Shown here in pieces: positions 21,811 to 25,859 of a DNA stretch of 34,914 nt; positions within the stretch are counted from its first letter, which is position 1, and each line of letters begins with the position of its first letter. Location: positions 1-34,914 of the forward strand of contig PHAZ01000007.1 of assembly GCA_002841825.1 (NCBI GenBank), written 5' to 3'. The notes under the pieces were generated by a model. The model saw only the letters and a program-made list of their open reading frames with translations. It was not told the DNA's origin and did not search any database. A program made the translations under genes and the position numbers. This stretch comes from Deltaproteobacteria bacterium HGW-Deltaproteobacteria-22 (lineage in GTDB: Bacteria > Myxococcota_A > Polyangia > HGW-17).

Positions 21811-22074
21811 TTAACGGAGGCGGGTCAGCAGATCGGCCAGAAGAGCCTCGGCGTCGGGGCGCAGGGCGGCCGGGACCGTCCAGGTCACGTGGGAGGAGCC
21901 GGGTTCGCTGGTCTGGACGCCGAGGTGGTCGTAGCCTTCGAGGATGAAGCGGGTGGTGCTCACGGCTGCGCGCGGCACAAAGAAATGCAGCCGCACGAGC
22001 TGGTCTGAACCCACGGACTCCACAGTGAACGGCGCACCGGCCTCGACAGGGACGCCCGGAGCCTCCGGCTTCAT
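21811..22074 (-). CDS. DUF4911-family protein
   Basis: 87 residues, hidden at the C-terminal end of a long spurious track ORF (21811..23070). The true start MKPEAPGVPVEAG overlaps the thyX stop as ATGA. The sequence resembles DUF4911: VRLHFFVPRAAVSTTRFILE, then GYDHLGVQTSEPG and a terminal VPAALRPDAEALLADLLTRL. The family is small, cytosolic and of unknown role; it often has an RNA- or regulator-sized alpha/beta look. Last gene of the long efp operon. Confidence 0.75.
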   Translation of the reverse strand: MKPEAPGVPVEAGAPFTVESVGSDQLVRLHFFVPRAAVSTTRFILEGYDHLGVQTSEPGSSHVTWTVPAALRPDAEALLADLLTRLR

Positions 22075-23414
22075 GACAGGGTCTTCCCCGCAAAGGCGTC
22101 CTTGCCGCCGAAGATCCGGCCGCAATGGGGCGCGTGCTCGCGCACGATCGCCGAGACGGCGCCGGCGAACGCGCGGATGTCCCACTGGGCATGGGCGTCC
22201 TCGCGCAGGCGGGAGAAGTGCAGGGTCTCTCGAAGGTTGGCCGTCCACGTCAGGCGCCGACGATGGCCCGACAGCAGCGCGTAGACGCTTGCGGGGCCCT
22301 CGACCCGGGAGGCCGTGGCCTCGGACAGGGCCACCAGGTCCCGGGCGCGCGCGGCGAAGCCGTCCGTCGCGGCGGCCGCCGGATGCGTGAAGCCCAGATG
22401 CGGATCGTACGCCGCGGGCGTGATGCCGGCGAGCCGGTGGCGCTTGAGCTGGGCGTAGGCGGCCGCCGAGAGCACCCACTCCCAGGTCAGGCTCACGTGC
22501 TCCCACGGGCGCGGCGCCGGATCGTGCACGCTCATGCCGTCGGTGATCCGCGCAAAGGCCTCCGAGCGACCCTCGGCCGACAACTGCCGGGCACCCGCCA
22601 GCGCGGCGGCGTACGGCGCCCCGGCGCGCACGGCCTGATGGGCGAGCACAAGGGCGTCCCAGTCGTCGACGGGCGAACACAACTGGAGCTGGCCCACGGG
22701 CTGGCCGAGAAACGACACGTTCTCCTCGAGCCGGGTCTCCTCGGTCGCCAGCAGCGTCCAGCCGGCGGCCTCCTCGCGGAGGATCCATGCCGAGGGCTCC
22801 ACGTAGCGGATCAGCGACGGCACCACGGGCTTGAGCACACCGAACAGCAAACCGGCGAGCTGCCGGGCCTCGGCAAAAGGCGACGCGGCCAGCCGCAGGA
22901 TCATGTGCTCGGCCGAGCGGGCGTTGCACGACAGCCCCACCTGCCCGGTCACCACCAGCGGCAGATAGTAGCGCGCGTCTTCGGCGGCCACCCCGGCTGA
23001 TAGCAGATCCTGGTAGAAGGCGACCGCATGAGTGTGTAGTTGCATCAATTCTTGACTGTTTTTCACCCACTCCGCGGGCTGGTGCCAGTCGGAGTCGAGC
23101 TTGACGTAGCGCTGGCTCTTCTCGGTGTACGAGGCCAGCCGGTGTTTTTCCAGCTCCTCGAGGGCCAGGCGGGACACATCTTCTATGTCAATATTAAAAA
23201 ATGCATGTTCGGCGATGGAGGCGTGCCCCATGTCGTAGACGATGCTCTCGTTGCTCTTGCGCGCCTTCTCCACGTTGGCGCGCGCGACCTCGCGCAGTTG
23301 GGCCAGCGTCTTTTCGGAGCGGCTCACGCGGGCGTAGGCGGCGGTGAGCACCTCAGGCGTGCGCACCGGGTTTTCGTGCACTTCCATGTTGAAGCCGGAC
23401 AGCGTCACCTTCAT
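22071..23414 (-). CDS. thyX: Tandem-domain FAD-dependent thymidylate synthase (ThyX-like)
   Basis: 447 residues, about twice the usual 220-250 of ThyX, because two ThyX-like domains are fused. Domain 1 (1-215) has GHASIAEHAFFNIDIEDVSR and the signature KHRLASYTEKSQRY (residues 90-103; normally RHRxxS..SxRY), but its C-terminal part, NARSAEHMILRLAASPFAEAR, is altered. Domain 2 (about 235-447) has LKRHRLAGITPAAYDPHLG, where the Ser and SxRY are lost, but keeps the canonical end NLRETLHFSRLREDAHAQWDIR. ThyX makes dTMP from dUMP with methylene-THF, FAD and NAD(P)H. It starts 16 bp after rlpA and overlaps the DUF4911 gene. Family is firm; activity depends on how the two halves combine. Confidence 0.88.
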   Translation of the reverse strand: MKVTLSGFNMEVHENPVRTPEVLTAAYARVSRSEKTLAQLREVARANVEKARKSNESIVYDMGHASIAEHAFFNIDIEDVSRLALEELEKHRLASYTEKSQRYVKLDSDWHQPAEWVKNSQELMQLHTHAVAFYQDLLSAGVAAEDARYYLPLVVTGQVGLSCNARSAEHMILRLAASPFAEARQLAGLLFGVLKPVVPSLIRYVEPSAWILREEAAGWTLLATEETRLEENVSFLGQPVGQLQLCSPVDDWDALVLAHQAVRAGAPYAAALAGARQLSAEGRSEAFARITDGMSVHDPAPRPWEHVSLTWEWVLSAAAYAQLKRHRLAGITPAAYDPHLGFTHPAAAATDGFAARARDLVALSEATASRVEGPASVYALLSGHRRRLTWTANLRETLHFSRLREDAHAQWDIRAFAGAVSAIVREHAPHCGRIFGGKDAFAGKTLS

Positions 23415-23430
23415 TGAAAACTCCTCGTGC

Positions 23431-23811
23431 CTATCTCCGCGACTTGCCGCGCGGCCGTCGCTTGGGCCGGGGGGGCGCTTCCTTGACCACCTCGAGGGTC
23501 ACCGAGATCACCCCGCGTGCCAGGGGGGCCAGGCGCGCAAAGCCCGCCGGTGTCAGATCGATGACCCGTCCGCGGATGTACGGCCCACGGTCGGTGATCC
23601 GCACCTCGACGCTCTTGCCGGACTTCACCTCGGTCACCTTCACGATCGTCCCGAACGGGAGCGTGCGGTGGGCCGCCGTGAGCGCCTTCGGGTCCACGCG
23701 CTCGCCCGACGCGGTCTTCCCGCCGTGGCTACCGTAATAGGAGGCCTTCCCCGACTCGGTGTGGGCGCAGGAGGTAGCCAGCGCCAGGATCAGCAGGACT
23801 TCAGCCACCAT
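23431..23811 (-). CDS. rlpA: RlpA-like lipoprotein (double-psi beta-barrel)
   Basis: 126 residues. Short signal peptide with lipobox LATSC (Cys at 15), then the RlpA/DPBB domain: GKASYYGSHGGKTASGERVD, LTAAHRTLPFGTIVKVTEVK, SVEVRITDRGPYIRGRVIDLT and the terminal barrel strand, followed by a basic tail. RlpA proteins are outer-membrane lipoproteins that act on naked glycan strands at the septum. This one lacks the C-terminal SPOR domain, as in many deltaproteobacterial homologues. ATG after GGGAGGGC; it overlaps the upstream CDP-alcohol transferase gene by 11 bp. Confidence 0.92.
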   Translation of the reverse strand: MVAEVLLILALATSCAHTESGKASYYGSHGGKTASGERVDPKALTAAHRTLPFGTIVKVTEVKSGKSVEVRITDRGPYIRGRVIDLTPAGFARLAPLARGVISVTLEVVKEAPPRPKRRPRGKSRR

Positions 23812-25225
23812 GCTTGCCCTCCCGCTTCTCCCCGGACAGCTGCTTCGTGTCCCGCCGGTCCGACGGAGGCTTCGTGTCCCGCTTCTCCCCGGCCGCCTGT
23901 TTCTGGTGCTTCTCCCGACGCAGGCGAAGCAGCAGCTGGACGTGCTGGATCGACAGGATCGTCGCCGCGATCATGGCCGACACGAAGATGAAGTACGCGC
24001 CGACCCACAAGAGACCGGCAAAACCCAGGATCATGAAGGTGAACAGGTGAAAATCACGCTTGGTCAGGTATTTTAATTTATTTAATATACGACCAACAAG
24101 ACCACCGCCGGGCTTGTCGGGGGACCCCAGTTGGTAATCCTGGTTGTTGCCCGTACCGGCAACCTTGATTAAATAATAATACATGACCACATTGGCGATC
24201 CACTGGCCGACAAACGCGGCCAAGCCCATCCAGATGAAGTACGTATGCCCCGTGTACTGGTACGACCACGCTGCGACGCCCGCAAAGAACAGGCAGTTGC
24301 AGATGTCGTCGAAGATGGTGTCGAGCCAGTCTCCCAGGTGCGAGTACTGGAACTTCACGCGGGCGATCTCGCCGTCGCAGCCGTCATAGACCGAGCAGGC
24401 CTGAATCAGCAGGCCACCCAGCGCGCCCGAGAGCCACAGACCCCACCCGAACACCGGGTGTCCCAGGAACAGCACCAGCGCCGCAGCCACCGCGAAGCCG
24501 GCGTTGAGCACCGTCAACTGGTTCGGTGTCAGGTGTGTGTGTGCCAGCAGCCGGCTCACCGGCAGCGACAGCGGACGGTTGAACGTGCGCGCGATCAGGC
24601 CGTCCTGCGGCTTGCGGAGGCTGTGAAACAACAGGCGCTCGGCGTCGCGTACATCACGACGATCACGGATCTTCCGGAAAAATCCCCCTTCGGACGATTT
24701 CTTCCAGGTCTTCTCCTTGTCGAGTCGTGCATGGATCGTCTGGATGTCGCCGCTCTCGGAGTCGTTTCCAAGCGACTTGACCAGCTCCGCGCGCACCGCG
24801 GCGGGAAAAAACGCCACGCCGGTCCATTGCTCGTCGCCGACATCGAGGAAGCCGTCGGAGCTGGTGCCGCCCTTGGCGCCGTGTCCGGGACGACCGCAGA
24901 CCACGGTCGCCTTCTCGGCGCTCTTGACGAGCCCGATCAACTGCTTGTGCACGACCGCGTCGGCGCGCAGCCAGATCACCCCGGTGGAAGGAAACTCGGG
25001 AAGCTCACGCACGGCCTGCACGGTGGTGCCCTCGAGTTGGAGCACGCGGCCGATGGGCTTCCAGTGCCCCTTGGGATCATAAATGTAAATTTGGTGGATG
25101 CCCGCGTAGTGCAGGCCCAACACGTGCCGCTCCACGAGGTCGAGGCCGCCGCAGCGCGCCTGGAACAGGTCCGGGGACGATTGCAGGCCGCCCGTCTGGA
25201 GAATCGCGCAGGTGGGTTCAGTCAT
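23801..25225 (-). CDS. Degenerate nucleotidyltransferase fused to CDP-alcohol phosphotransferase
   Basis: 474 residues. The N-terminal 200 residues have an NTP-transferase-like plan (CAILQTGGLQSSPD, LDLVERHVLGLHYAGIHQIYI, VIWLRADAVV) but lack the usual GxGxR...KP nucleotide-binding signature, so this half may be inactive. The C-terminal half is a membrane CDP-alcohol phosphotransferase with the full motif DGEIARVKFQYSHLGDWLDT (DGxxAR-x8-GxxxDxxxD, completed by the following IFD) and several membrane segments. The tail is a charged repeat (EKRDTKPPSDRRDTKQLSGEKRE). This layout matches bifunctional inositol-phosphate cytidylyltransferase/di-myo-inositol-phosphate synthase proteins, a plausible but unproven role. 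Start overlaps the preceding gene by 8 bp. Confidence 0.85.
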   Translation of the reverse strand: MTEPTCAILQTGGLQSSPDLFQARCGGLDLVERHVLGLHYAGIHQIYIYDPKGHWKPIGRVLQLEGTTVQAVRELPEFPSTGVIWLRADAVVHKQLIGLVKSAEKATVVCGRPGHGAKGGTSSDGFLDVGDEQWTGVAFFPAAVRAELVKSLGNDSESGDIQTIHARLDKEKTWKKSSEGGFFRKIRDRRDVRDAERLLFHSLRKPQDGLIARTFNRPLSLPVSRLLAHTHLTPNQLTVLNAGFAVAAALVLFLGHPVFGWGLWLSGALGGLLIQACSVYDGCDGEIARVKFQYSHLGDWLDTIFDDICNCLFFAGVAAWSYQYTGHTYFIWMGLAAFVGQWIANVVMYYYLIKVAGTGNNQDYQLGSPDKPGGGLVGRILNKLKYLTKRDFHLFTFMILGFAGLLWVGAYFIFVSAMIAATILSIQHVQLLLRLRREKHQKQAAGEKRDTKPPSDRRDTKQLSGEKREGKHGG

Positions 25226-25859
25226 GATGGGGTTTCTCCTGCGGGGGCAGCTTCTTCAGCATCAGGTAGCCCTCGCGGATACGGAAAAGGGCCGTCAGGT
25301 GCCCGAGGGTCGCGAGCACGATCAGCAGCCATTCGACGGGGGTGAAAAGCCACCAGCGTGGCACGCCCAGCGCCTCGGTGCCGATCTGCACGAAAGGAAT
25401 GATAATCAGCAGCACATGACGCTCGGCTCGTCCGAGCACGCCCGACTCCACGCGTCCGCCGCCGGAGGCCTGGCTCTGGCTGCCCAGGAAACTGACCAGC
25501 AGGACGGCCACGATCGCCAGATGCGCCAGCAGCGCGTCGGCGTAGGGCGAGAAGGCAATGCCGGTGAGGATCGCCACGTCGGTGTAGCGGTCGACGACGC
25601 AGTCGAGGAAGTCGCCCAGCGGGGACATCTTGTTGTGACGTCGCGCAAGGTGGCCGTCGAGCAGGTCCAGCAGGCCGTTGAGGATGGTCAGCAGGCTCGC
25701 CGCAATGAGAAAACCCCAGCCTCCGATGGCCCAGGCCACACCCGCGAGCAGGCCCGGAATCAGGCTCCAGAAGGTGATGGTGTTGGGATGGGTGCCGGCC
25801 AGCCGCCCGCCGATCGGGTATAAAAGTCGTTCCTTGAGCGGTCGAAACAGGTGCAGCAT
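25218..25859 (-). CDS. CDP-alcohol phosphatidyltransferase family protein (second of three)
   Basis: 213 residues, multi-spanning. The N terminus FRPLKERLLYPIGGRLAGTH and PNTITFWSLIPGLLAG are typical of the PgsA1/archaetidylinositol-phosphate-synthase-like branch. The catalytic motif is complete: DGHLARRHNKMSPLGDFLDC, with the last Asp in the following VVD. A later segment GVLGRAERHVLLI recalls the RxER substrate-binding segment of inositol-phosphate-using members. It would transfer a phosphatidyl group from a CDP-lipid to an alcohol phosphate; the acceptor is not decided by sequence. 22 bp after the small membrane protein and overlapping the fused transferase. Confidence 0.88.
   Translation of the reverse strand: MLHLFRPLKERLLYPIGGRLAGTHPNTITFWSLIPGLLAGVAWAIGGWGFLIAASLLTILNGLLDLLDGHLARRHNKMSPLGDFLDCVVDRYTDVAILTGIAFSPYADALLAHLAIVAVLLVSFLGSQSQASGGGRVESGVLGRAERHVLLIIIPFVQIGTEALGVPRWWLFTPVEWLLIVLATLGHLTALFRIREGYLMLKKLPPQEKPHHD

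Follow-up and report, generated by a model that had tools for sequence, protein, structure and literature searches.

The flavin-dependent thymidylate synthases (ThyX, or FDTS) of Thermotoga (TM0449), Mycobacterium, Helicobacter and PBCV-1 are homotetramers of subunits of about 220-270 amino acids, in which every subunit carries all of the active-site residues and four sites are formed. In solved ThyX each site draws on three subunits: RHR, which reaches FAD and dUMP, and R174 come from subunit A, S71 (T55) and R190 (R165) from subunit B, and S105, R107 and Y108, which form the S88/R90/Y91 loop, reach dUMP from subunit C (PMC6514825). In the PBCV-1 enzyme Gln75 and the equivalent of R174 belong to one monomer and Ser88 to another (PMC3498832), and H53 is contributed by a third (PMC11940539). 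R174 polarises dUMP, S88, R90 and Y91 assist the transfer, and Thermotoga mutants of the latter three residues lose much of their activity (PMC8316439). Residues are numbered here as in Thermotoga TM0449, from its aligned residues, by subtracting the 12 residues of the tag from the chain number; this offset agrees with R78-H79-R80, S88, R90 and R174. ThyX is essential and has no human counterpart, and its three-subunit sites make the assignment of residues to subunits hard to test.

A few double-length proteins are already on record, most of them by name. The "thymidylate synthase" gp020 of Microcystis phage Ma-LMM01 (491 aa) is very divergent and annotated by name only; our profile of the double proteins matches its whole length (115 bits), S-x-R-Y falling in the first half, RHR and LR in the second, and it was detected by this profile only, being missed by the single-domain seed profile. 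Gp50 of Tunturiibacter phage Tunturi_5, also annotated by name only, is alike in its double length. A divergent "FAD-dependent thymidylate synthase" of 528-565 aa on linear Paenibacillus and Bacillus plasmids has the same division of residues as the proteins described below. ThyX of C. trachomatis (CT632, about 530 aa), studied by Griffin et al. in 2005, reportedly has two ThyX domains and is active; if it belongs to the double branch, one characterised member exists. Herpesvirus dUTPase offers a precedent, as an oligomeric enzyme that was duplicated and fused and now has its motifs distributed over the two halves and fewer sites, yet it is an unrelated enzyme derived from a trimer. In the literature searched, with most subscription journals lying outside it, no description of a tandem, fused or double ThyX with a divided active site was found. 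The gene analysed here is itself not unknown, because public annotation already calls such proteins FAD-dependent thymidylate synthase; within the searched literature, what was not found described is the divided active site and its spread. Compared with canonical ThyX, the double protein has the same fold, motifs, three-subunit site and predicted chemistry and likewise needs no DHFR, but it is a fused pair with its residues divided and with two predicted sites.

Results

A double-length ThyX gene

The window, that is the whole stretch of 34,914 nucleotides analysed from contig PHAZ01000007.1 of Deltaproteobacteria bacterium HGW-Deltaproteobacteria-22, carries an open reading frame of 447 amino acids at 22071-23414 of the reverse strand, on which all features given below lie. 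It starts with ATG, and a Shine-Dalgarno-like GAGGAG (23421..23426) stands six nucleotides 5' of this codon. A preliminary description, made from the letters alone, had called the gene a tandem ThyX, and profile searches bear this out: Pfam Thy1 (PF02511) matches twice (2.4e-52) and NCBIfam thyX (TIGR02170) matches at 3e-40, both above the cut-off. The frame contains no stops and recurs with 91-97% identity in two other assemblies. In an AF2 model built with 49 relatives (mean pLDDT 86.3, pTM 0.86) strands and helices follow a like order in both halves, and the top Foldseek matches in the PDB are all ThyX, with a TMt of about 0.8 for one half. Full-length matches came from a viral structure library, namely the Ma-LMM01 thymidylate synthase (TM 0.63/0.58) and a 461-aa protein (0.67/0.65); the two-domain arrangement is thus roughly reproduced, with high rmsd.

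The two domains of this protein are the only Thy1 matches in its genome, a 4.4 Mb draft of 361 contigs that is 87% complete, and the search for thyA that the preliminary description had proposed returned neither ThyA nor a second ThyX from this draft. A thymidine kinase match (G000:C150:9749-10270) is part of an open frame of 374 aa, which exceeds the usual length of such an enzyme.

The gene is followed by a small ORF (21811-22074, reverse strand) resembling DUF4911, at 28.9 bits slightly under the Pfam cut-off of 29.3, whose ATG overlaps the ThyX stop by four bases (ATGA), an overlap that suggests translational coupling. Directly upstream, at 23431-25859 of the same strand, are genes for an RlpA-like lytic transglycosylase and a CDP-alcohol phosphatidyltransferase, and ORFs of both kinds also adjoin the double ThyX of another genome of the same family (L082).

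Division of the active-site residues between the two domains

The first domain (D1, aa 1-205, 22800..23414), whose limits were drawn from the alignment and the AF2 secondary structure, fills the H53/T55 and S88-R90-Y91 roles. Its HASIAEH motif (aa 64-70, 23205..23225) holds His64 (H53), Ser66 (T55) and Glu69 (E58); SQRY (aa 100-103, 23106..23117) provides S88, R90 and Y91; and Arg148 (22971..22973), which has no equivalent in the second domain, corresponds to R147, the ligand of the dUMP phosphate. A degenerate RHR, here KHR (aa 90-92, 23139..23147), precedes SQRY, so that residues 90 to 103 read 90-KHRLASYTEKSQRY-103 and Lys90 stands at the place of R78; across the double family this first place is K, S, A, R, H or W. 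In the stretch NARSAEHMILRLAASPFAE (aa 164-182, 22869..22925) alignment and model put Leu175 at the place of the catalytic R174 and Pro at that of H178, so the C-terminal helix NARSAEHMILRLAASPF is without the catalytic Arg.

The second domain (D2, aa 241-440, 22095..22694), delimited by Pfam, AF2 secondary structure and alignment, supplies the Q75/RHR/R174 role. It has Gln322, an intact RHR (Arg325-His326-Arg327, 22434..22442; R78-H79-R80) and, in NLRETLHFSRLREDAHAQW (aa 393-411, 22182..22238), Arg404 (R174), His408 (H178) and Gln410 (Q180), its end reading NLRETLHFSRLREDAHAQWDIR. The places of H53 and T55 are occupied by APR (aa 300-302, 22509..22517), with Arg302 at that of T55, and a different loop (aa 328-338, 22401..22433), identified by alignment, replaces S88-x-R90; H53, T55, S88, R90, R147 and the whole of S-x-R-Y are absent.

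Thus the preliminary description was right that D1 keeps the N-terminal KHR...SQRY with an altered C-terminal motif and that D2 has lost SxRY and kept the canonical LR end. Its statement that RHR has become KHR holds for D1 and fails for D2, where 324-KRHR-327 is intact, which rules out a loss of RHR from the protein. We also considered whether D1 keeps R174 behind a one-residue gap. Many members do have a conserved Arg one residue ahead of the R174 place in D1, which a gap in the helix would align, but this alignment was set aside because the AF2 model gives the helix the same length in D1 as in D2 and places the missing residue in the loop that follows, which is one residue shorter. FAD contacts are present in the chain as a whole, through RHR and R174 of D2 and S66 and R166 of D1.

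An alignment of 118 double proteins, from which Ma-LMM01 was excluded, shows that this complementary split is essentially invariant. In D1, H53, S or T at position 55, S88, R90 and R147 are found in all 118 and Y91 in 117, compared with R78 in nine and R174 in none. In D2, R78, H79, R80 and R174 are each present in 118, Q75 in 110 and Q180 in 111, compared with H53 in none; Arg occupies the T55 place in 111, and the S-x-R-Y loop is missing. All 32 single-domain ThyX aligned keep H53, R78, H79, R80, S88, R90, Y91, R147 and R174, and L081, an unfused ThyX of 281 aa from the same order, has RHR, S-x-R-Y and R174 in one domain. Neither half of the doubles retains all dUMP and FAD contacts, although no catalytic contact position is left empty in both. 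The motif RHR-x7-S-x-R-Y is not whole within one domain, RHR lying in D2 and S-x-R-Y in D1, and since it is whole only across the full chain these proteins are a variant and not canonical ThyX. The division is not total: N163-x-R165 is conserved in both halves, and E58 in both halves of most members, and the retention of R165, a contact of the B role, in both is left unexplained by the subunit scheme.

Peptide patterns served to find the first 65 loci, and because one of these patterns includes H178-Q180 the columns of H178 and Q180 are slightly favoured in that set. A further 43 doubles, found by the Pfam profile and free of this bias, show the same split. As it is essentially invariant in 118 homologues, 43 of them found by profile and not by motif patterns, the split is not due to chance.

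Two variations on the pattern were noted. In a divergent subgroup of Myxococcota doubles (L134, L137-L142, L184 and similar) the RHR of D1 is entirely gone (LHAHPFYNSEQVSQRY) and D2 reads DSQDQRHR...MRLC.NAQEE, with the split between A and B/C residues still kept. One locus (L145, genome G066) is the sole member without Tyr91 (SGRP), and its genome also encodes a full ThyA; the loss is consistent with relaxed constraint.

Distribution and origin

Scanning of genome contigs gave 65 loci, of which all the full-length ones are fused doubles with open frames of 460-600 aa. They occur in the bacterial groups Myxococcota, Fermentibacteria, Margulisiibacteriota, Omnitrophota, Elusimicrobiota, Cloacimonadota, Fibrobacterota and Auribacterota and in the archaeal Thermoplasmatota (Methanomassiliicoccales) and Woesearchaeota. 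The Pfam search of 143 other Myxococcota genomes provided the 43 further doubles (tallied by hand from the table), and more were found on linear Bacillus and Paenibacillus plasmids, on IMG/VR contigs and in Microcystis phage Ma-LMM01, so that the genomes, plasmids and phage contigs with this two-domain architecture number more than 100. Three copies (L176-L178) lie on putative viral IMG/VR contigs of 340-470 kb, an endolysin-like amidase adjoining that of L176, and Tunturi_5 (L214, 309 kb) is another very large viral contig with a double ThyX.

A tree was built from 87 domains, including 33 from single-domain ThyX; in it all D2 form one group (support 97) and all D1 form another (weak support, 64), with no mixing of the two. 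This tree is most simply read as a single event of duplication and fusion, after which the doubles spread by descent and transfer. The exact place of the doubles among single ThyX is uncertain because of long branches.

Co-occurrence with other genes of dTMP synthesis

Among 50 genomes bearing a double ThyX, 44 have neither ThyA nor another ThyX, three have a ThyA match (one of them partial) and three have a further single-domain or split ThyX. DHFR was found in two, both alongside ThyA, and is missing from the other 48. A true thymidine kinase is present in eight of the 50 and in the genome of the window, 20-bit matches being counted as other ATPases on the basis of their length. Thymidine kinase is also missing from 36 of the 44 genomes without ThyA or another ThyX, leaving no other route to dTMP found in them; these 36 include two Omnitrophota records (L029, L039) whose titles name them as chromosomes. 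The absences are soft because most of the genomes are draft MAGs. In a set of 143 Myxococcota genomes at least 90% complete, two of the 43 doubles co-occur with a full ThyA, where 18 would be expected (P about 2e-10; 6e-8 when two weak partial ThyA matches are included), that is, the double ThyX excludes ThyA in Myxococcota. L145, the member without Y91, is one of these two. The double protein replaces ThyA and makes DHFR dispensable, as is characteristic of ThyX, and judged by this co-occurrence it very likely functions as a thymidylate synthase. The same data favour dUMP over UMP as its substrate.

Discussion

We consider it highly probable that the 447-aa protein, made of two fused and subfunctionalised ThyX domains, is a flavin-dependent thymidylate synthase built as a two-chain pseudo-tetramer, for which the dimeric state, the count of two sites and the activity are predicted. 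By comparison with solved ThyX, D2 would act in the A role only, R78-H79-R80 holding the phosphates and ribityl of FAD and R174 polarising dUMP. D1 would take the C role, in which the S88-x-R90-Y91 loop and R147 hold dUMP and assist methylene transfer, and the B role as well, its H53/S55 helix facing flavin and folate. Two chains may pair into a pseudo-tetramer, and a 222 tetramer can accommodate two D1 and two D2 in three layouts. If D2 occupies positions A and D, and D1 positions B and C, complete sites would form at A and D, and those at B and C would have none of the parts; either of the remaining layouts would leave each site short of a part. Because D2 fills one role and D1 the other two, a single 222 layout would fit, and because only this layout gives complete sites, we infer a homodimer that has two sites, where canonical ThyX has four, and about one FAD per chain. 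A fused pseudo-dimer with shared composite sites, as the preliminary description proposed, is therefore still the best reading and withstands both refuting conditions named along with it, except that the sharing appears not to be reciprocal, one class of site being complete and the other dead throughout. More broadly, the doubles probably represent a widespread ThyX branch of single origin, in which duplication and fusion made an asymmetric enzyme of two chains out of a symmetric homotetramer, reduced four sites to two, left FAD and R174 to one half and dUMP and folate to the other, and produced the sole dTMP synthase of many lineages.

Several other explanations were weighed against this one. 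All four composite sites of the pseudo-tetramer could be active if the substitutions were tolerated variants, and the retained ThyX fold, together with N163-x-R165 and E58 in both halves of most members, would fit such a view. We find it very unlikely, as the second class of site would have neither R174 nor, usually, R78 and H79 on the side of D1, and no H53, T55, S88 or R90 on the side of D2, throughout the 118 members, and the loss of activity in the Thermotoga S88, R90 and Y91 mutants (PMC8316439) speaks against tolerance. Either half alone is short of essential residues and looks degenerate, as would be expected if the protein resembled a pseudo-enzyme pair, with one catalytic half and one remnant kept for structure or regulation. 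Both halves, however, hold invariant catalytic residues belonging to different subunit roles, and a remnant would not keep R78-H79-R80 and R174, or S88, R90 and Y91, in 117-118 of 118 members, which makes this explanation extremely improbable.

The protein might also carry out flavin-dependent C5-methylation of pyrimidines for another task, such as modification of UMP or of DNA bases, instead of house-keeping dTMP synthesis. The ThyX-like PolB of polyoxin synthesis, described as methylating UMP (PMC5003785), is a precedent, and in a few genomes the double ThyX does stand beside ThyA or a single ThyX. We give this very little chance, given that the protein is the only dTMP synthase found in most bearers, that DHFR and often thymidine kinase are missing, that ThyA is excluded, and that conservation over phyla is that of a house-keeping gene. 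An assembly error, a pseudogene or a frameshift fusion of two thyX genes might be suspected in a draft of 361 contigs. The probability of such an artefact is practically negligible, and this reading is already refuted by the relatives that share the architecture, more than 100 as counted above, in addition to the open frame and its close counterparts in two other assemblies.

If the roles are separated on one chain as we propose, a single mutation per site would address each contact, and it becomes possible to test why there are four sites or whether sites cooperate. The double ThyX would also be a clean, large-scale example of complementary loss after duplication and fusion, and annotation that seeks RHR...S in one domain may misread it as degenerate.

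A different alteration was seen in two Myxococcota genomes of the same class (L207 in G133 and L208 in G166), whose single-domain ThyX is split by an intein inside the catalytic motif; in L207 the insert matches Pfam Intein_splicing (4e-11) and HNH and reads RHRTA / C...VVHN / SVNEYSGRY at its borders, and L208 has the same ends.
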